Part shown: in pieces, positions 1 to 25,524 of the stretch
Layout of the letters: the number at the start of each line of letters is the position of its first letter
Numbering within the stretch: the stretch's first letter is position 1
DNA from: Nitrososphaerota archaeon
Lineage (GTDB): Archaea; Thermoproteota; Nitrososphaeria; Nitrososphaerales; Gagatemarchaeaceae
Direction of reading: 5' to 3'
Length of the DNA: 64,000 bases
NCBI GenBank assembly: GCA_029785375.1
Contig: JAFLZV010000006.1
Span: 1-64,000 of the forward strand
Notes under the pieces: generated by a model
Told to the model about the DNA's origin: nothing
What the model saw: the letters and a program-made list of their open reading frames with translations, nothing else
Database searches by the model: none
Program-made: the position numbers and the translations under genes

Positions 1-1
1 C

Positions 2-820
2 GCAGAGTCTGTTCAGAAGATCTACTCCGAGATATGTGCCCTAGACATGATATACAGCGTCGCTCGGATGAAGAATGGCTACTACGACCAGAGGCTGGTC
101 CTCAAGGGCGGCATGTCTGTCAGAAACCATGTGCCCCTGCTGGATCACAGGTTCTCCTTTGACGCCGACTACGACCCCAACTCCATGGCTGGCTACAGCT
201 TCGGGGACGTCGACGAGATTAGGACAGACCTGACGAGGTATGCCGGTCTGAGAAGATGCGACGTCCGGGTCGACCTGGCGAAGAACGACGACCGGCTGCT
301 GTTCCTTGAACTGAATTATAGAGACGTCCTCCGTCGCGTCGGCTACACGATTGAAGAGAGGCCGAAGATTGAGCTGTGCAAGAGATGCAGGATATTCCAG
401 GCACCTGAAGAGAACGAGATGGCCACGATCATGAACCTGAGGTTGCTTGGGCTGGAACCGCTCATCATCAAACATGTTGGCCTGGAAGAGCAGCTGGCAT
501 CGAAGCTCTTCATAATAGGCGATTTGAGGCGCGGGAAGAGGAACCACTTCGACGCCTACGACGCGCTTCGAATCACCGAGAGCAACCGCGGCCTCGACTG
601 GAAGCTGGTCAGAAACCTGTTCGCCCAGCGGGCAGAGAAACACGCTGTAAGGGGCCACGTCCTGAAGACCAAGGAACACATCCGTGAGTGCCGGAGGCAA
701 CTCGACACCATGAAGCTGAACGCCAACAAGAAGAGCGGGCTTGCTCGCCTTGTCTTCAAGAGAGATTTTGATTACGACGCCATGATCGAAAGGGTGAAGG
801 CACTTTACGACAACGTATGA
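2..820 (+). CDS. AbiEii-like nucleotidyltransferase (type IV TA toxin family), probably 5'-truncated by the window edge
   Basis: Open frame continues upstream of the first ATG (47) to the window edge; LVLKGGMSVRNHV and HRFSFDADYD resemble the AbiEii KGG and D-x-D motifs. Confidence 0.65.
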   Translation, partial: AESVQKIYSEICALDMIYSVARMKNGYYDQRLVLKGGMSVRNHVPLLDHRFSFDADYDPNSMAGYSFGDVDEIRTDLTRYAGLRRCDVRVDLAKNDDRLLFLELNYRDVLRRVGYTIEERPKIELCKRCRIFQAPEENEMATIMNLRLLGLEPLIIKHVGLEEQLASKLFIIGDLRRGKRNHFDAYDALRITESNRGLDWKLVRNLFAQRAEKHAVRGHVLKTKEHIRECRRQLDTMKLNANKKSGLARLVFKRDFDYDAMIERVKALYDNV

Positions 821-913
821 CCCTCTACTTCACTCTCCGGAACCCCCCACGCCTAGGACTATCATAGACTCCGGGTCTATCTTTGTTAAAAGCCCAGCCC
901 TCGATTTACGGGC

Positions 914-1462
914 ATGGGCCTGCTCAGGGATCTCTCTAGGCTCCTCTCCAGCAACCAAGAGAAGCAGTACGGCACCCCTTCCAAAACGATGCATGGTGAG
1001 GACGTCAGGAGCAGGTCCGAGCAGAGGATTGCTGATTACTTCGCCCAAAACGGAATCCGCTACCTCTACGAATGGGGCGCCCAAACCGACGCATTGATCT
1101 TCAAGCGTACATTTGCCCACCCCGACTTCTTCCTTCCAGATTACAAAATCTACGTGGAGTTTTGGGGGCTGGCGAAGGTCAGCAAGAAATACAGGCGCAC
1201 AATGAGGTTCAAGATGAGAGAGTATCGCAAGAACAAGATTAGGTACATCAGCCTTTACCCTGATAACCTCGACAACTTGGACTGGATTTTCAGGACCAGG
1301 TTTCGAGAACTCGTCGGGTTCGACTTGCCGGCAAAACCGCATCCTGTTCCTGGGAAAGCTCGGTACTGCGCCAGGTGTGGGACACCGGTCGCACCACCTG
1401 GTAACTTCTGCAGCAGATGCGGCAGCACCATCGATACATCTCCGCGCCCAGGTTCCCCCTAG
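914..1462 (+). CDS. PD-(D/E)XK-like nuclease domain protein with C-terminal zinc ribbon
   Basis: SRSEQRIADYF...HPDFFLPDYKIYVEFWG pattern of PD-(D/E)XK nucleases; C-terminal CARCGTPVAPPGNFCSRCG zinc ribbon. Confidence 0.6.
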   Translation: MGLLRDLSRLLSSNQEKQYGTPSKTMHGEDVRSRSEQRIADYFAQNGIRYLYEWGAQTDALIFKRTFAHPDFFLPDYKIYVEFWGLAKVSKKYRRTMRFKMREYRKNKIRYISLYPDNLDNLDWIFRTRFRELVGFDLPAKPHPVPGKARYCARCGTPVAPPGNFCSRCGSTIDTSPRPGSP

Positions 1463-1754
1463 GAGCCGCTTATCGCCGGTCCACCATGGCCCAACTTGGG
1501 ATAAGGTATTCTCTACGGGGGCACAATGAACCTTGCACTGGTTTTCGCATCTGTGAGAGGAGTCTTAACGTGGTCTCTTCGATAGCGGGTCTCCCAACTC
1601 TTACAGGACCATAACTATCCGCCGACATCGACGAGCATTACGCATCGCTCAATGACCTTCTATGTTTCTTCCAGGAACCCCAGAAGCTCGTCGAGCTAAC
1701 CAAGTCTACCGGGCACCGATTCCGTAAAGGCGTAGCGTCTGCCTGAGGCGAGCC

Positions 1755-1889
1755 TCATCCACAATGGACAGACGCCGTCACCGCGGCGTTGTTCTTCGAC
1801 TGTTTCGCGGCGTACTCCGCGACGTCGAGCGTCTCCTCTGCCTTCTGCAGGTAGTTCATGTATAGGCTCCTATTGACGGGCTTGGACAT
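1755..1889 (-). pseudogene. Truncated HEPN-domain protein remnant (44 aa)
   Basis: MSKPVNRSLYMNYLQKAEETLDVAEYAAKQSKNNAAVTASVHCG* resembles the N-terminal half of HEPN proteins and then stops; start overlaps the 3' end of the MNT gene. Confidence 0.5.
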
Positions 1890-2490
1890 CTCCTATCTTC
1901 CTCAGGTCTTTGCCCCGGACCATCCTGTAGGACTCGAGGATTGACCTGCCCAAATCCTTGTTCTTCTTTCTGGCGAACGTGGCTTCGTCCATGATCAAGG
2001 GGGACAACCCAAATCCGAACTTCGAAACCGTTTCGGCAGAAGCGTCCACAACGCGCTCGCTGGCGAGCTCTCTGTCACCCGCCACGATGAATATGTCGAC
2101 GTCGCTCTGCTTCCCCTCGAGTCCCTTCGCGGCGCTCCCGAAGACGGCCACCGATCTAATCGACTTGTCGTCAAAGAACGGCTTGATCGTGGACAAGATC
2201 GCACCGAGGGTGTCTTCCTCGGCTTTGATTGCGGGCCAGACTATCGAGTTCAGCACGTAGCTCTCCTCGTTCAGGATGACCTGCTGGGCCCTCCCAACAG
2301 GTTGGAGCCTCACGACCCCTCTCTTTTCCAGGGTCCTGGCCACAAGGGCGACTTCGGGGTGCGACAGGCCAGCCGTCCTCGCCAAGTCCCTTATGGTGAA
2401 CACCTTCCCCCTGTAGCGGACCAAAGTCTTGAGCACCTTGATGCTGGCCTTACTGCCCAGGACCTCGGTCAGGTAGTCGTGGAGGGACAC
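1870..2490 (-). CDS. Winged-helix plus MNT nucleotidyltransferase (antitoxin-like) protein
   Basis: N-terminal wHTH; C-terminal VAVFGSAAKGLEGKQSDVDIFIV (GS-x-SDVD motif). Confidence 0.8.
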   Translation of the reverse strand: MSLHDYLTEVLGSKASIKVLKTLVRYRGKVFTIRDLARTAGLSHPEVALVARTLEKRGVVRLQPVGRAQQVILNEESYVLNSIVWPAIKAEEDTLGAILSTIKPFFDDKSIRSVAVFGSAAKGLEGKQSDVDIFIVAGDRELASERVVDASAETVSKFGFGLSPLIMDEATFARKKNKDLGRSILESYRMVRGKDLRKIGDVQARQ

Positions 2491-2553
2491 AATTTCTCAG
2501 GTCGGGGGTACTGGTAGAAAAACATTCCATATGGTAGGTAATACTGCCATAAC

Positions 2554-2588
2554 GGGCGATTTGAGCACGCATAGGCGTGCCGCGGGTC
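2554..2588. repeat. att-like direct repeat copy A (tRNA-Phe 3'-end remnant)
   Basis: gggcgatttgagcacgcataggcgtgccgcgggtc; 33/35 identical to 5203-5237. Confidence 0.8.
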
Positions 2589-2614
2589 CTCTTTCGCTAG
2601 TGCCGACGGCCAAG

Positions 2615-3268
2615 TCATGGCCTACGTAACGTACTTCCGTCTTCCCTGAGACGAACATTCCCCATCTGCGGGTCGTACTCCCTCTGGAACTCGTCAGGGT
2701 TGCTCACGGTCCGCATCGCCGCAAAGGCTGAGATTCGGGCATTGGGAAACGCATCCGCGAGCCGATTCGCAGCACCAAGCAGCGTCGCGCCACGAGTGAT
2801 TATGTCGTCAATCAGCAGAACGCTTTCGGGTTCTGACAGACGACCTTGGACTTCCAACGTTTCGTAGTGTCTTCGTGCGGTTGGCCTCAGTCTCGCTGGA
2901 CTTTGCGCTGCCTTGGGAACAGCCTGGGTGCGAACCAGGCACGAGACTACTTGGCCTAGTCCCTGATCGGCAAGGGCCGCCGCAAGCCTCTGTGGGACCC
3001 AAAGGGTTCCAGCTCTCATCAACGAACTGCTCGGAACGGGGACGAGGACCGGGGTGGGCTGGAAAAGGGTGGCAAAAGGCATGGAGTTGATGTTCTGTCG
3101 CACCTGTTGCGCCACCCAATGCGACATCAGGACAGGGGGCGGTTGCAGGAAGCTATCGGTCTTGAGGAGGGTCATCACTCCTTGAGAGTGGAGGTCCTTT
3201 GGCGTTCCACCGTTCGGGGAGTACGAGAGGAGGGAACCGTACTGGAGCTCAGACAGGCGTAGGCTCAT
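2615..3268 (-). CDS. ComF-like phosphoribosyltransferase
   Basis: SVLLIDDIITRGATL PRPP-binding motif; PVLVPVPSSS start of PRTase core. Confidence 0.75.
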   Translation of the reverse strand: MSLRLSELQYGSLLSYSPNGGTPKDLHSQGVMTLLKTDSFLQPPPVLMSHWVAQQVRQNINSMPFATLFQPTPVLVPVPSSSLMRAGTLWVPQRLAAALADQGLGQVVSCLVRTQAVPKAAQSPARLRPTARRHYETLEVQGRLSEPESVLLIDDIITRGATLLGAANRLADAFPNARISAFAAMRTVSNPDEFQREYDPQMGNVRLREDGSTLRRP

Positions 3269-3271
3269 TTC

Positions 3272-3976
3272 TCATTGAGCCACACTGACAATCCTCTCGC
3301 GAGGCGGTAGGAACCCTAGGATATCCTTGGGATCTTCGAGCGCGACAGCTCCATACTCCATCATCTTCTTCGGCCAACTCAGAGACCGCTTCTCCAGGAC
3401 CAATTTCCAGATGTAGAGAGGCCGCCCGAGCCTCAGAGCCTCCCACCCCTGCGCCAGAGAACCGCTCGTCTCCCCTGCCTCGACGATGATCGAAGCGTTG
3501 CAGACGAGAGCCATCGTCCTATCCCTAATAACGAAGTCCCTAGGCTGGGTCGGATGTCCGTTCAGGAATTGGGAGACCGCGCAATACTCCCGCATGATTT
3601 TGTCCTGAAGTTCGAAGTTCTTCGCCGGGTAGACGCGATTCAACGGGGTCCCAAGGACCGCGACGGTGTATCCATTCTCCTCAATGGTCGCTCTGTGGGC
3701 TGCCGTGTCAATCCCCTCGGCAAGCCCACTGACCACCACAACCTGGTTTCGTGCAAGGATCCGCGCTATCTGGGTTGCAGCCTCCAGCCCGGCGCCAGAG
3801 GCCTTTCGGGACCCCACGACCGCAACACGGGGCCTGGGCAACGGGGTTTGCACGACCCCAGCCACATAGAGCCGCGGGGGCGCGTATCGCGCCTCGACAT
3901 CGTTTAGCGGGCCTAGAAGCTCTTCGGGAGTAAGAGTGGAGATGCTCTTTCCTTTGATAATCTCCATCGGTTGCAA
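3272..3976 (-). CDS. DprA/Smf-like Rossmann-fold protein
   Basis: VAVVGSRKASGAGLEAATQIARILARNQVVVVSGLAEGIDTAAHRATIEENGYTVAVLGTPLNRVYP is the DprA core signature. Confidence 0.85.
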   Translation of the reverse strand: MQPMEIIKGKSISTLTPEELLGPLNDVEARYAPPRLYVAGVVQTPLPRPRVAVVGSRKASGAGLEAATQIARILARNQVVVVSGLAEGIDTAAHRATIEENGYTVAVLGTPLNRVYPAKNFELQDKIMREYCAVSQFLNGHPTQPRDFVIRDRTMALVCNASIIVEAGETSGSLAQGWEALRLGRPLYIWKLVLEKRSLSWPKKMMEYGAVALEDPKDILGFLPPRERIVSVAQ

Positions 3977-4069
3977 GGTTGTGACTTTGCCATTAATAGG
4001 TTTGAAGCATGAGAGGAGTGTGAAAGTGCTCCGTAGGCGCTCAAGAGCCGGCGCAAGCTTACCGCCAAA

Positions 4070-5122
4070 CTACCTGCCTCTGATGCCGTATAGGCGCAGG
4101 GCCTTCCTGACATGCGGCTCATCCATCTTGGCAGGGATGACTCCACCGCCACTCATGGCTGCCACGGCGCGCTCGCTCTCCCTGGACGGTGCTACTTTGA
4201 TCAGGGCAACCAGGGCCCCGAGAAGCTTTTCGGCGAAACCGTACTTCTGGGAGAGAAAGACAAGGAGGGAGTAGTCTACCTTGTTCTTCGCAAGGAGCAC
4301 GGGGACAGCTGCAATCCGTCTCTTGTCCTCGCCCAGGAGTACTGAAGAGATGATATATTCTACTGAAAAATCCTGCCCCCCGTCTGCTTCTGACCCGAAC
4401 TCCTTGTACCCCAACTTCGCAAAGTTATGGACCAGATCCTTCTCGCTTATCTTGGAAGGGTTGGTCCTGTCGAGGTCGAACCTGATACGAACTCCTTGAA
4501 CCACTGCGTTCCGGATCAGCCTCCAGAACTCTTGAGGCATGTGGAGAACCACCATGTCCGGGATCATCTCCTTGAACGGGTTCCTCTCAGGGGATCTCAG
4601 CCGCTCGATCAGCTCGCTGCCGGCCACTACGAGTGGTTCCACCCTCACATTGAGCCGTGTCCCTATCTCATGGGTGACTTTCTGCGCCTTCGATTCCTGG
4701 GCCGTTTCCTTCTCTTCCATGAGGACCAGCGGCTCCGCCCTATTCAGCTTCGCGTTGCGCTCAGGGTCGAGGAGGAGGATCGACCCGACGGAGGCCAAGT
4801 CCCCGAGCTCCCTTTCCAGACTCTCGAACAGTCCCCAGGTATCGGGCCACTTCCGCAGGAACTCCCGCTTCTTCTGGAGTTCCATCTCGGTCAGGGTGTC
4901 AAGGAGGAGATAGTTCGCGAAGTTGAGGGCGGGGATGGACGCCTTCCCTTGCTTCTCCATCGTAACGATGCCTTCTTTCTCGAGCGATGCTAGTGCGCGG
5001 TAGATGTTAGGGTAATAGGCGGGACCAGACTCTTCCATCTCTGAAGTTAGCTGGCGGATAGAGACTGGATTACTCACCCTCCTCGACATGGCGTCCAGGA
5101 TTCTGAACTCGGTGCCGTTCAA
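4070..5122 (-). CDS. wHTH regulator-like protein with a degenerate MNT-like region
   Basis: N-terminal wHTH (NGTEFRILDAMSRRVSNPVSIRQLTSEMEESGPAYYPNIYRALASLEKEGIV); middle region VGSILLLDPERNAKLNRAEPLVLM sits where a GS-x-D-x-D motif would be expected. Confidence 0.5.
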   Translation of the reverse strand: MNGTEFRILDAMSRRVSNPVSIRQLTSEMEESGPAYYPNIYRALASLEKEGIVTMEKQGKASIPALNFANYLLLDTLTEMELQKKREFLRKWPDTWGLFESLERELGDLASVGSILLLDPERNAKLNRAEPLVLMEEKETAQESKAQKVTHEIGTRLNVRVEPLVVAGSELIERLRSPERNPFKEMIPDMVVLHMPQEFWRLIRNAVVQGVRIRFDLDRTNPSKISEKDLVHNFAKLGYKEFGSEADGGQDFSVEYIISSVLLGEDKRRIAAVPVLLAKNKVDYSLLVFLSQKYGFAEKLLGALVALIKVAPSRESERAVAAMSGGGVIPAKMDEPHVRKALRLYGIRGR

Positions 5123-5202
5123 TTCCTTCGAGAGGTCACCCTCGGGGTCCTATATTAAGATAGCAAAGATGCTATAATATAATAGCAAAATGACTATAAC
5201 AA

Positions 5203-5237
5203 GGGCGATTTGAACACGCTTAGGCGTGCCGCGGGTC
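5203..5237. repeat. att-like direct repeat copy B, overlapping the tRNA-Phe 3' end
   Basis: gggcgatttgaacacgcttaggcgtgccgcgggtc; 33/35 match to 2554-2588. Confidence 0.8.
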
Positions 5238-5334
5238 GGATTTGAGCCGACGACACTCCGGTCTTCAGCCGGATGCTGATGAGCTATGAGGTCTCCCTAG
5301 CCTTCAAGCAGGAATCAGGCTGAGCTACCGCGGC
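5227..5334 (-). tRNA. tRNA-Phe(GAA) with about 34 nt of insertion/introns in the D-arm region
   Basis: Acceptor GCCGCGG/CCGCGGC, anticodon arm TCCGG-CTGAAGA-CCGGA, T-arm GTCGG-CTCAAAT-CCGAC; 108 nt, versus about 74 nt if AGCCT|GATTCCTGCTTGAAGGCTA|GGGAGA|CCTCATAGCTCATCA|GC is spliced. Confidence 0.8.
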
Positions 5335-5410
5335 ACGACACATGCGCCGCCAGCGGAGAGACTTAAGACTTTGCGCCGTAACCTAGGTTTCATCGTTCTT
5401 GGATTAAACC

Positions 5411-5587
5411 GTGCCACAGGCTAACCGATTCTTGTCCCATTCGTTGAAGATCACCAGGGGCGACCACAGACATATGACGCGGCATTCAGGTCAGGTCGCA
5501 ACCCTCACCACCCTCGGTTCCATTATCTGCTCTTGCGGCGCCGAGAACTCGCACAGGGCTTCTTTTCAGAAAACTGGATCCAGCTAG
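5411..5587 (+). CDS. Small hypothetical protein (58 aa, GTG start)
   Basis: ORF VPQANRFLSHSLKITRGDHRHMTRHSGQVATLTTLGSIICSCGAENSHRASFQKTGSS. Confidence 0.3.
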   Translation: MPQANRFLSHSLKITRGDHRHMTRHSGQVATLTTLGSIICSCGAENSHRASFQKTGSS

Positions 5588-5734
5588 TGCAGCCGCGGGT
5601 TCCCGTCAGAAGTCGGGATCCTTCTGGGTATGCTCTAGCTACGGGGCTCAGGAAGAGCTTCAATTGTCGGTGCCGCGGCAATAAAAATCCAGCAAGCGCC
5701 ACATAAGCTTCTATGATTTCCCCCCGAAACCAAA

Positions 5735-6132
5735 AGGGGGTTGAAGCTTCCGAAGAAGGTCATCCTCCTTGACGTGACGCTCCACGACGGTGAGCAGCAA
5801 ACGAGGATGATCTTCAGGCGGGAGGACAAGCTGAAGATTGCCCGGGCCCCGGACTAGGCCGGAGTAAAGACGATCGAAGCTGGCCCCCTCTGTATCCCCA
5901 TCTGACAAGTAGGCCGTGAAGGGGATCGCCCATCTGAAGCTCGACGCCAAAGTAAGTCTACGCCTTTGCCCGCAGCATGAAGACGGACATCGACAGCGCC
6001 CTCGACGTCGACGTAGACGGGGTCGTCATGGAGATGCCGTCGAGCGACCACTTGGTGAAGTACGGGTACAGCTGGAAGGCGGAGAAGGGCGTCGACCTCT
6101 CCGTCGAGGTGACGAATTACGCCCATGACCTG
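5735..6132 (+). pseudogene. Decayed isopropylmalate/homocitrate synthase-HMGL-like gene
   Basis: KKVILLDVTLHDGEQQTRMIFRREDKLKIARAPD*AGVKTIEAG ... frame change ... MKTDIDSALDVDVDGVVMEMPSSDHLVKYGYSWKAEKGVDLSVEVTNYAHDLGV; in-frame stops and frameshifts. Confidence 0.65.
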
Positions 6133-6519
6133 GGGGTCTCGCAGGGTGATAAAGCCCAGGGCTGTTGCGATGAGGAACCAATCCACGATTTCCAAGCTAC
6201 CGCCCGCCGCGGCCATAATCGGGGTTGCCGTCCTCGGGCGGCACTCCCTCGGCGGGACGATGGGGGACAGGATGCTCGCCCCAGCCCCAGGGGGTCTTTC
6301 CTGCCTCCACCTCGCGCTCCCTGCTGGCATGGGCGGGAACCCAGCTGGCGCTCCCGGTCTCAATAACACAGCGCTTGATTGGAGACATGCTGGGGGCCGC
6401 ATTCACCAGGAACGTGACAATAGTGAACACGGAGCTCGTCGCAGAAACTATCTCACTCTGTGTTGTAGCATCATTGGTCGCCCTGGCGGCCGCCTTCCTC
6501 CCCACGCTGGCGCCGTAGC
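6125..6519 (+). pseudogene. Decayed PiT-family (inorganic phosphate) transporter
   Basis: Fragments in different frames: TWGSRRVI; AWAGTQLALPVSITQRLIGDMLGAAFTRNVTIVNTELVAETISLCVVASLVALAAAFL. Confidence 0.5.
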
Positions 6520-6576
6520 CATTCAAAGGCCAACCCATAAATGAGGTGAAACGAGGTGGCCTGCTCAATAGCTGTC

Positions 6577-7125
6577 ATGTTCTGCGCAAAGTGCGGGAAA
6601 GAGCTGCCTGATGGAGCTACCTTCTGCCCATCATGCGGGGCCGCGGTCCAGACTGGGACGGGAGATGCCCACACGAGCGGAATCGACGCTCTGACCAGAG
6701 ATCATAACGCGCAGGAGTACTGGGTGGAACGGCTGATTGCGCTGATCATCGACTACGTCATCGTCTATGTGGTTCTCGGCATCGCCACTGCGATCGTCGC
6801 CATCCCGGCCCTCCTCACCGGCGGTGCCGCATTCTTCGGGGTCGTGTTCGGGGGCTTTGCCCTCCTCTGGGGGGTCATCTTCGTCTTCTATAACGCCGTT
6901 ATGGAAGTGTCCTCCGGCGCAAGCATCGGGAAGAAGCTCTTCAAGTTGAAAGTAGCCTCCAGGCGCGGCTCGAACCCCACCTTTGCGGAGGCTTTTGTCA
7001 GGAACCTGAGCAAGATTTACTGGCTCCTCCTGCTCCTCGATGTGATAGTGGGCTTGGCCATCTCGCACGGGTACCAGCAGAAGTACAGCGACCACTACAT
7101 GGGTACTAAAGTGGTCCACGCGTAG
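6577..7125 (+). CDS. RDD-family membrane protein with N-terminal zinc ribbon
   Basis: MFCAKCGKELPDGATFCPSCGAAV followed by an RDD domain (WVERLIALIIDYVIVYVVLG... SIGKKLFKLKV). Confidence 0.8.
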   Translation: MFCAKCGKELPDGATFCPSCGAAVQTGTGDAHTSGIDALTRDHNAQEYWVERLIALIIDYVIVYVVLGIATAIVAIPALLTGGAAFFGVVFGGFALLWGVIFVFYNAVMEVSSGASIGKKLFKLKVASRRGSNPTFAEAFVRNLSKIYWLLLLLDVIVGLAISHGYQQKYSDHYMGTKVVHA

Positions 7126-7192
7126 GCGCTTCGCATCCCCCGTTGCTTGGAGAACTATTTTATCGAGCCATTCCGGCACTCCAGAACCTGAA

Positions 7193-8308
7193 TTGAGCGA
7201 CTATGGCACCAAAGCCGTGGTGGTCACCTTCCCGGACGAGTTCGCCAGGCGTGAGATAGTCGAGCTTGCGAAGGCAGGAGGGTATGACGTCAAACAGGTG
7301 GTGACATACAGAGACCTAGGCCGTTCCAAGTACGGAGTTGGCTCAGGCAAAGCTCAGGAGCTTGAGGGGCTGGTCGCAGACACCGAGTCAGACACGATAA
7401 TCATTGACGAGAGCACGACGTCCTCCCAGGCGAACAACCTCTCGCGTCTCACCCACGCCCGCGTGGTCGACAGGGAGAGACTCATCCTTAACATCTTCGC
7501 CAAACGCGCCGCCACGACCGAGGCCAAACTCCAGGTACAGCTCGCCGAGCTGCGCTACGAGCTTCCCAGGGCGAGGGACGCGGTCCGACACTCGGTCAGG
7601 GGAGAGCAGGCGGGGTTCTCCGGCATGGGGGAGTATGCGGTCGATGTGAAGTTCCGGGCGCTCAAGAGACAGATGACTTTCATCAAGAGCAAGCTCGACA
7701 AAACGAAGACAGTCAGGGCGCTCCACACGTCGGAGAGGCGGAAGCTGGGGGTGCCGTTCGTGTCGCTCGCGGGTTATACCAGCAGCGGGAAGACCACCCT
7801 CTTCAACAGGCTCACGACCGAGTCGAAGGACATGTCCCCCGACCTCTTCACCACCCTTTCGACCACCACGCGCATGATCACCTTCCATAACTCCAAACGG
7901 AAGGTCCTCCTCTCCGACACCGTAGGCTTCATCTCGCGCCTGCCCACTTACCTCGTGGAGTCGTTCAGGTCGACCCTCGACGAGCTTCGTTATGCTGACC
8001 TTATCCTGCTGATGATTGACGTCAGCGAGCCGGCCGAGAGCATCGGGATCAAACTGGGGAGCTGCAGGGAGACGCTGAACGAGCTGGAAGTCGAACCCTC
8101 GAAACTCCTCGTAGTCCTGAACAAGGTTGACCTCTTGGACGCCAGGGCGAGGTCCAAGATCGAACTCGACCCGCTCTTCAAGGAGTATAACACCGTCAAA
8201 GTGTCGGCGGTCCGAGGGGATGGGATGCACCAGCTACGGACCAGGATCCTCGAAAGGACTGACCCAAGGAGGCTCGCCCGGGAGCCTGGGCTCACTGCCC
8301 CAGGGTGA
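7193..8308 (+). CDS. hflX: GTPase HflX
   Basis: GYTSSGKTTLFN P-loop, DTVGFISRLPTYLVESFRSTLDEL, NKVDLL; HflX N-terminal domain. Confidence 0.92.
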   Translation: MSDYGTKAVVVTFPDEFARREIVELAKAGGYDVKQVVTYRDLGRSKYGVGSGKAQELEGLVADTESDTIIIDESTTSSQANNLSRLTHARVVDRERLILNIFAKRAATTEAKLQVQLAELRYELPRARDAVRHSVRGEQAGFSGMGEYAVDVKFRALKRQMTFIKSKLDKTKTVRALHTSERRKLGVPFVSLAGYTSSGKTTLFNRLTTESKDMSPDLFTTLSTTTRMITFHNSKRKVLLSDTVGFISRLPTYLVESFRSTLDELRYADLILLMIDVSEPAESIGIKLGSCRETLNELEVEPSKLLVVLNKVDLLDARARSKIELDPLFKEYNTVKVSAVRGDGMHQLRTRILERTDPRRLAREPGLTAPG

Positions 8309-8511
8309 CCGTCCGAATCTCGCGCACATCTTTCCGATAGGCTCGTCCCTTCTTATCAGGTCCCAGCTCTTCCCCACACCCTTTGACCCGAGGCCAGTGA
8401 GGGAATTCGCGCGGCTGAGACTGATAGGAAGTCAGGCCTGCGACGGTTCAGCCGGCCAGATCAGGCGCCGAAGAGTTCAAATCGCCCCATGACGGTTCGG
8501 CCTCAGTTATT

Positions 8512-8913
8512 TTGAACTCCAGTCTTGTGTTTCGAGTCACCGGTGCCGCCCTCGGTATCCAGGTGGCGCTTGGAGGGCTTGTCTCATTCGGTTTCCTCGA
8601 CGCCTCAGCGCACATAATCTGGGGGATAGTGGTAGGAATTCTCGCCATCGCGTCTCTCGTATATGTCGCCAGGATGTCACCGCGCCCCAAGAGGCTCTTC
8701 GGCCTCACTATAGGGATGGGAGTCGACATTCTCATCCAGGCTTTGATAGGATTCGCCGCCTTGGCTACGACTAGTGTCCCCACTCTAAGCAACGCCATCG
8801 CCTGGTTCCATCTCCTCAACGCCTTTGCGATCTTCGCCATGTTCATGGCGTTGAGCCTTGCCAAGCCAGGAGAGGTGCCGACTACTGTGGCCCCTTCGGC
8901 GAGACGCCCCTGA
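8512..8913 (+). CDS. Small multi-pass membrane protein, hypothetical
   Basis: About four predicted TM segments by hydrophobicity. Confidence 0.5.
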   Translation: MNSSLVFRVTGAALGIQVALGGLVSFGFLDASAHIIWGIVVGILAIASLVYVARMSPRPKRLFGLTIGMGVDILIQALIGFAALATTSVPTLSNAIAWFHLLNAFAIFAMFMALSLAKPGEVPTTVAPSARRP

Positions 8914-9198
8914 TGCAGCCGTCCAATCCAGTAAGACACTGTCGCTGCCTTCGAACGTTACTCCGAGGGCGTCCGTGCGGCAATCATGCGATATCCAGTC
9001 CGACATGACGATGTTCTATCCAGGCTCCAGTTCCTGTTAAAGGTGGGGCGAAGTATCAATGCCCGACTCTCAATTTTGAGTCGAGCATGTGGTCAGGGAT
9101 CTGTGCATGACTCCAACAGGCCGGGTGGCCCGGGGTTTCCATTGAAGCATGCCATGCGTCATCGGTTCTGTTGGACAACTCAACTTCAAATCGGATTG

Positions 9199-24936: not shown

Positions 24937-25524
24937 GTGAAGGCGAGGCTGGGTGAATTCCATCTGTCGGCCGACATCCGGTGCAGCGGGACCACGTGCC
25001 TGGCGGGGAAGAACGGGTCGGGGAAGACCTCTCTGTTGAATGCCCTGGCAGGACTTATCCCATCCGAGGGCACAGTCAGGGTGGACGGGAAAGACATCTC
25101 CAGGCTCCCAGTGGAACAAAAGGGAATAGTGATGGTGACGCCGTCGTCGTGCATTCCTCACCTCGACGTCGAAGCCCACCTCAGATGGGGGGCGAAGCTC
25201 AAGGGCAAGGTCCCGCCTCAGGAGGAGATTGCTAAGGTGAAGTCAGAGCTGGGCATAGACTTCACGGGACCAGTCAGGAGCCTCAGCCTCGGAATGAGAG
25301 GTCGGGTGTCACTTGCCACCGCCTTCTTCTCGGCACCCAAGGTCATCCTTGTGGATGAAGTCTTCTCCCTCCTCCACGACAAAGATGGGTTCGTCACTTC
25401 CTACAGAACGCTAGCATCGGGTGCCGGCATCGACTTGATCTTCACCAGCCAGAACGAAGAGGACGGACGGCTCGCAGAGCAGACCTACGTAATGCACGAC
25501 GGGACTGCGACATACCGCTCCTGA
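24937..25524 (+). CDS. Molybdate/tungstate ABC transporter ATPase (ModC-like, no TOBE domain)
   Basis: GKNGSGKTSLLNALAG Walker A; SLGMRGRVSLATAFFSAPKVILVDEVF. Confidence 0.85.
   Translation: MKARLGEFHLSADIRCSGTTCLAGKNGSGKTSLLNALAGLIPSEGTVRVDGKDISRLPVEQKGIVMVTPSSCIPHLDVEAHLRWGAKLKGKVPPQEEIAKVKSELGIDFTGPVRSLSLGMRGRVSLATAFFSAPKVILVDEVFSLLHDKDGFVTSYRTLASGAGIDLIFTSQNEEDGRLAEQTYVMHDGTATYRS

Follow-up and report, generated by a model that had tools for sequence, protein, structure and literature searches.

A 2.65-kb integrase-less ShosTA cassette, probably mobile at the 3′ end of tRNA-Phe, in a Nitrososphaerota archaeon

Cis-mobilizable elements (CIMEs) that arise by accretion keep their att sites, lack genes for integration and transfer, and lie in tandem with an integrase-bearing element; they have been described in bacterial ICE and IME families (PMC5704250). 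The closest precedent for the locus presented here is the Dehalococcoides ssrA region, where islands stand in tandem at one RNA gene with ~20-bp copies of its 3′ end between them, 15 of 31 have no integration module, and some of these integrase-free units were proposed to be cis-mobilizable (PMC3146451). Within the phylum studied here, a survey of thaumarchaeal integrated elements describes repeated use of one site, with tyrosine recombinases and tRNA 3′ ends, including those of intron-containing tRNAs (PMC6563490). Integrons, including archaeal ones, hold small integrase-free cassettes in one orientation behind a docking site (PMC9668308). As to cargo, ShosTA is an anti-phage system composed of ShosT, a phosphoribosyltransferase and pyrophosphatase, and ShosA, a DNA-binding antitoxin (PMC12593503), and it has been listed for Asgard archaea (PMC11291487).

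We analyzed a 64,000-nt stretch of a Nitrososphaerota contig (JAFLZV010000006.1, positions 1–64,000; hereafter the window), which carries a 2.65-kb segment, E1, beside a tRNA-Phe gene. In our view, E1 is probably an integrase-less, cis-mobilizable ShosTA element that moved at tRNA-Phe, was stacked on an older island and is served by an integrase in trans. As in CIMEs, attL and attR of one specificity flank E1, no integrase, relaxase, replication or transfer genes were found inside it, and relatives (G004:C18, C44 and C2; G016) show the tandem arrangement with an integrase-carrying element that has the same att site. In contrast to the bacterial families, the mobility of E1 is deduced from sequence; in structure, E1 fits the definition of such an element. 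The Dehalococcoides islands are bacterial, occupy a tmRNA gene, use serine recombinases and carry dehalogenase genes, whereas this locus is archaeal and combines tRNA-Phe, a nearby tyrosine recombinase and defense cargo. The passages of the thaumarchaeal survey considered here (PMC6563490) mention neither an integrase-less ShosTA cassette of 2.65 kb nor repeated fragments of tRNA-Phe. Unlike in integrons, docking takes place at a tRNA gene, whose 3′ end forms the core, and the two integrases discussed below both fall short of the IntI model (TIGR02249, cut-off 265 bits) with 17.3 and 54.1 bits. On this reading, the phenomenon is tandem island accretion at tRNA and tmRNA genes in a new form, and involves no new mechanism.

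E1 is bracketed by a 35-nt direct repeat at 2554–2588 and 5203–5237 (33/35 identical; spacing 2,649 nt). No such match arose in 100 dinucleotide shuffles, and the MAG to which the window belongs (728 kb, 61% complete) holds no copies beyond these two. The attL-like copy B (5203–5237, minus strand) comprises the last 11 nt of the tRNA and a 24-nt element arm, CGCCTAAGCGTGTTCAAATCGCCC, and reads on the minus strand as the tRNA 3′ end GACCCGCGGCA followed directly by that arm. The attR-like copy A (2554–2588, minus strand) consists of the tRNA 3′-end fragment GACCCGCGGCA and an element arm, without a tRNA body. A previous sequence-only reading had given the same coordinates, identity and composition for the repeats, had regarded copy A as a tRNA remnant and had placed a gene ~65–80 nt from each repeat, all of which we confirm, the gene starts being 63 nt (2490) and 80 nt (5122) from the respective copies. 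It had also taken the 24 nt for the 3′ flank of the tRNA, which is right as to position; yet the flanks differ at those tRNA-Phe genes of the genus that are empty or carry something else, and we therefore consider these 24 nt to be mostly contributed by the elements rather than by the chromosome. The att arm can fold into a hairpin of 5 to 6 bp.

The element would target a tRNA-Phe(GAA) gene with an expanded D-arm (5227–5334, minus strand) at its 3′ end. This gene was recognized from its sequence and from a sub-threshold Rfam match (RF00005, 26.4 bits at 5286–5235, against a cut-off of 29); ARAGORN did not call it. Homologous tRNA DNA is present in 70 of 101 relatives. The extra D-arm nucleotides are probably a non-canonical intron, and this segment varies among related tRNA-Phe genes of the genus.

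Evidence for movement comes from filled and empty alleles. In contig C44 of MAG FK2_bin.84 (G004), the counterpart of window 1–2588 (97.1%) is joined directly to that of 5196–9000 (99.8%), an exact empty site in which the repeat occurs once. Contig C18 of the same MAG, which stops inside the tRNA and so leaves its chromosomal side unlinked, and the window's genome (G000), where one contig runs through the tRNA, carry the filled allele with both repeats and the 2.65-kb interior. The empty site that the sequence-only reading had suggested looking for in relatives is thus found next to a filled one, and alleles sharing the exact site support its proposal of site-specific integration at a tRNA 3′ end. 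The empty junction combines the tRNA half of attL with the distal half of attR (CTAT and GCTC at the two diagnostic positions); since the letters of attR there follow the tRNA left side, the exchange is placed within GACCCGCGGCACGCCTA. In addition, the near-complete genome G016 provides a second and independent E1-free case, its tRNA-Phe being joined straight to the module that lies beyond E1 in the window, a nucleotidyltransferase (MNT)-HEPN pair (94% over 829 nt). Based on these junctions, E1 would have entered, or precisely left, the tRNA-Phe 3′ end by site-specific recombination within this stretch, an event that would have restored the tRNA. As a free form, E1 would exist as a circle, with a predicted attP of actagcgaaagaggacCCGCGGCACGCCTA joined to AGCGTGTTCAAATCGCCCttgttatag; we saw no circular form or attP of E1, and no exact att core in the IMG/VR viral collection.

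Comparison of G000 with G004:C18 showed E1 to be 99.85% identical (2608/2612) and the adjacent 2.55 kb to be 95.14% identical (2428/2552), with the step at the repeat. In G000, this neighboring stretch is nearer to the E1-free allele (97.1%). E1 and its neighbor therefore differ in history, although the step could also have been produced by homologous recombination close to the repeat.

The interior of E1 consists of three minus-strand genes heading away from the tRNA. The last two had been read as DprA-like and ComF-like, an assignment that we replace: the product of 3272–3976 matches ShosA by its PADLOC profile (E = 2e-66), besides Pfam DNA_processg_A (3e-47), a ShosA chain in the PDB (9vzo, 4e-12) and DprA structures, and that of 2615–3268 matches ShosT (PADLOC, E = 1.4e-19), with a weak Pfam phosphoribosyltransferase hit. 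The two lie on the same strand, with 3 nt from the ShosA stop to ShosT, and are thus adjacent as in known ShosTA systems. E1 differs from these in its preceding 350-aa winged-helix (wHTH) gene, its tRNA-Phe att brackets and its shorter ShosA. By homology, the cargo is a putative toxin-antitoxin antiviral pair that may work in defense here. ShosA-like genes occur in 16 of the 101 relatives, and because none of ten such loci examined has a tRNA-Phe fragment nearby, ShosTA does not appear to be generally tied to tRNA-Phe. The other parts of the earlier description of the interior, a wHTH gene and the lack of an integrase, hold. The GC content of the interior is 0.573, below the 0.613 of the part of the window that starts at 5.4 kb. 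Casposons were rejected as a candidate, as no E1 gene has a Cas1-type Pfam match.

The wHTH gene (wHTH350; 4070–5122, minus strand) adjoins att, and a homologue in G027 (77% identical) is also found beside att with a different cargo gene. Its product could regulate ShosTA or the recombination; the AlphaFold model, built on an alignment of only three sequences, has a mean pLDDT of 35. No relative was present in IMG/VR, and no plasmid records encoding it were found.

On its outer side, E1 borders an older island. The next module, E2, begins with a wHTH-MNT nucleotidyltransferase gene (1870–2490, minus strand; PDC-M05A, 9e-15), which directly follows the tRNA in G004:C44 and G016. Its HEPN partner (1761–1889, minus strand; by tblastn) is truncated to 43 of 128 aa, and is intact in G016, G004:C2 and G027 (Pfam HEPN for the intact copy). 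Further out lie a PDC-S69-like candidate defense protein with a zinc ribbon (914–1462, plus strand) and, at the contig edge, an AbiEii-family nucleotidyltransferase (47–820, plus strand; Pfam AbiEii, 1e-9). The two wHTH genes, of E1 and E2, share only weak N-terminal similarity (25% over 68 aa). As to the earlier proposal that related modules had integrated serially, the seriality gains support from the tandem tRNA-Phe 3′ fragments.

Within E2, positions 1619–1784 are 72% identical to G027:C81 5765–5938, which overlaps the end of the wHTH350 module of that genome, a remnant pointing to past recombination between modules. The persistence of this wHTH350-related fragment would also fit a history in which a larger element with its own integrase shrank by decay to E1, leaving a CIME that no longer moves, and tRNA and tmRNA genes often carry decayed elements in tandem (PMC5704250, PMC3146451). 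We nevertheless regard this history as rather doubtful, given that both att copies retain the core, that all three genes are open, and that E1 is nearly invariant between two strains whose neighboring DNA is 95% identical.

The candidate enzyme for the mobility of E1 is found in relatives. A third copy of the att core, GCGGCACGCCTA, occurs in both G004:C2 and G016, upstream (43 bp in G016) of a gene for a 416-aa tyrosine recombinase, which matches Pfam Phage_integrase (1e-4, below its cut-off) and XerA-like integrases (2e-8, far below its cut-off), with intact catalytic R, HxxR and GH...Y motifs. Homology of G004:C44 and C18 with G016 and C2 begins exactly at this third core, on the tRNA side of which their contents are unrelated, and the third core is therefore a recombination boundary. 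In G004:C18 the recombinase gene is reached ~1.8 kb past the point that corresponds to window base 1; the window contig ends short of where the gene would lie, and its MAG, at 61% completeness, contains no homologue. The search for an integrase elsewhere that targets tRNA-Phe, as the sequence-only reading had advised, thus yielded a candidate beside the att core in relatives and none in the window's own MAG. At 10 of 20 loci of this family in relatives, a tRNA gene stands directly upstream on the same strand (His twice, Asp, Arg twice, Leu, Lys twice, Ile and Gln, hence seven amino acids), as is expected for an enzyme integrating at tRNA 3′ ends. The island integrase has no relative in IMG/VR. 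Based on the shared sites and on its position, we infer that the island integrase is the enzyme used on E1. In this model, the MNT-HEPN module comes first beyond E1, followed, as seen in relatives, by the tyrosine recombinase next to the third att core; E1 would have landed atop this older island, and the recombinase would most likely act on it in trans. The suicidal, SSV-type integrase arrangement was rejected, as att does not split the 416-aa island integrase, lying 43 bp upstream of its gene in G016, and E1 contains no int fragment. Just past the island integrase gene lies a TnpB/Cas12f-like gene (L034; G004:C44 14762–15967). Separately, a tRNA-His gene in G033:C11 (426–36737; L073/L160) lies between two tRNA-Phe fragments with a spacing of 36 kb, and ~80 bp after it comes a 56% identical homologue of the island integrase.

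A second type of tRNA-Phe element is complete in G004:C3 (24.6 kb; L035, 380–2094, and L155, near contig position 25187), in the order tRNA, small gene, XerA-like integrase; palindromes of the TTTACCGGTAAA kind lie close to each end. The small gene appears to encode a DNA-binding protein, with no family match, and the XerA-like integrase has one 43% relative in IMG/VR. This integrase, unrelated to that of the island, uses tRNA-Phe in both G004:C3 and G027 and might instead have acted on E1: its gene lies ~0.6 kb behind tRNA-Phe, its element ends in a tRNA-Phe fragment, and an attR of its type adjoins the MNT-HEPN module of G004:C2 and, in G027, the wHTH350 module. We consider it unlikely to be the recombinase in question, as its sites have only the tRNA part in common with those of E1, with a TTTACCGGTAAA-type palindrome, and are without the CGCCTAWGCGTG arm, which E1 shares with the MNT-HEPN module and with the island-integrase site.

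To place E1 in the context of the genus, we searched 31 congeneric genomes for an 18-nt tRNA-Phe 3′ fragment, allowing at most one mismatch. It was matched in 20 of them, and a reversed control pattern gave nothing. The full 35-mer has eight matches in the same genomes, all at tRNA-Phe or inside tRNA-Phe-type islands, which refutes the idea, raised by the sequence-only reading as a possible objection, that it is a dispersed repeat unrelated to tRNA-Phe. Fragments in the same orientation bound units of ~1.8 and 1.9 kb (G010:C19), 1.9 kb (G027:C81) and 2.65 kb (E1), MNT-HEPN units of 4.5 and 4.9 kb, larger units of 9.3 kb (G011, G019) and 16.9 kb (G017), integrase-bearing units of 21–25 kb (G004, G016), and a unit of 36 kb in G033, from another genus of the family. 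The DNA past the outermost fragment in two G004 contigs is 95–96% identical to the tRNA-Phe flank in G024, and we therefore read the tRNA-Phe of G024, with its plain chromosomal flank, as an empty attB. Exact matches to the 20-mer CTCAAATCCGACCCGCGGCA in the GTDB collection are nearly confined to MAGs assigned to Nitrososphaerota or simply to archaea; one record is labeled bacterium, and one match, in Tropicimonas, is presumably due to chance. In G010:C19 (749–4501; L086), a module with a PhoU-like protein and a PiT phosphate transporter and another with a racemase and a nitroreductase sit between three same-orientation tRNA-Phe 3′ fragments, without an integrase; the PhoU-PiT pair is also present in five other genomes.

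These distributions bear on whether E1 moved by an integrase at all. Were E1 ancestral, homologous recombination or replication slippage between repeats that are direct and 94% identical could have deleted it in the lineages of G004:C44 and G016 and yielded the same empty junction, and both E1 and the tRNA side are ~99.8% conserved between strains, the outer side being mosaic. Such a loss would leave unexplained why the repeat is the tRNA 3′ end, why many elements of the genus share that end fragment, and why an integrase lies beside the third copy; moreover, the wHTH350 gene is limited to G000, G004, G027 and, distantly, G025, so that we judge ancestral loss to be quite improbable. Finally, G004 is a mixed-strain MAG with contig coverages of ~8 to 23; the values for C44 (22.9) and C18 (9.6) are in line with a mixture of strains. 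Even so, it is hardly credible that the two alleles are an artefact of binning or assembly, as the filled form was assembled independently in G000 and G004:C18, and the join of the tRNA to MNT recurs in G004:C44 and, at 94% identity, in G016.

More speculatively, and with rather low probability, tRNA-Phe may serve the whole genus as a docking site, behind which small integrase-less units (ShosTA, MNT-HEPN, wHTH with a nucleotidyltransferase, the phosphate-transport pair of G010 and the racemase-nitroreductase set) would be stacked in one orientation by island-encoded integrases. If this were true, it would be a functional analogue of the integron built on a tRNA gene. Relative to the open-access full-text literature, what is new is the location at an archaeal tRNA-Phe, the very small size of the ShosTA cassette, the pairing of filled with empty alleles, and the naming of a candidate integrase and core site. 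Taken together, these results extend tandem tRNA/tmRNA island accretion to this nitrososphaerotal genus, name a candidate integrase and its core site, and provide what is probably a clear natural case of a minimal, integrase-free archaeal antiviral toxin-antitoxin cassette coming and going at an exact site, suggesting a route by which defense genes may spread in 2-kb units without a self-mobile carrier.
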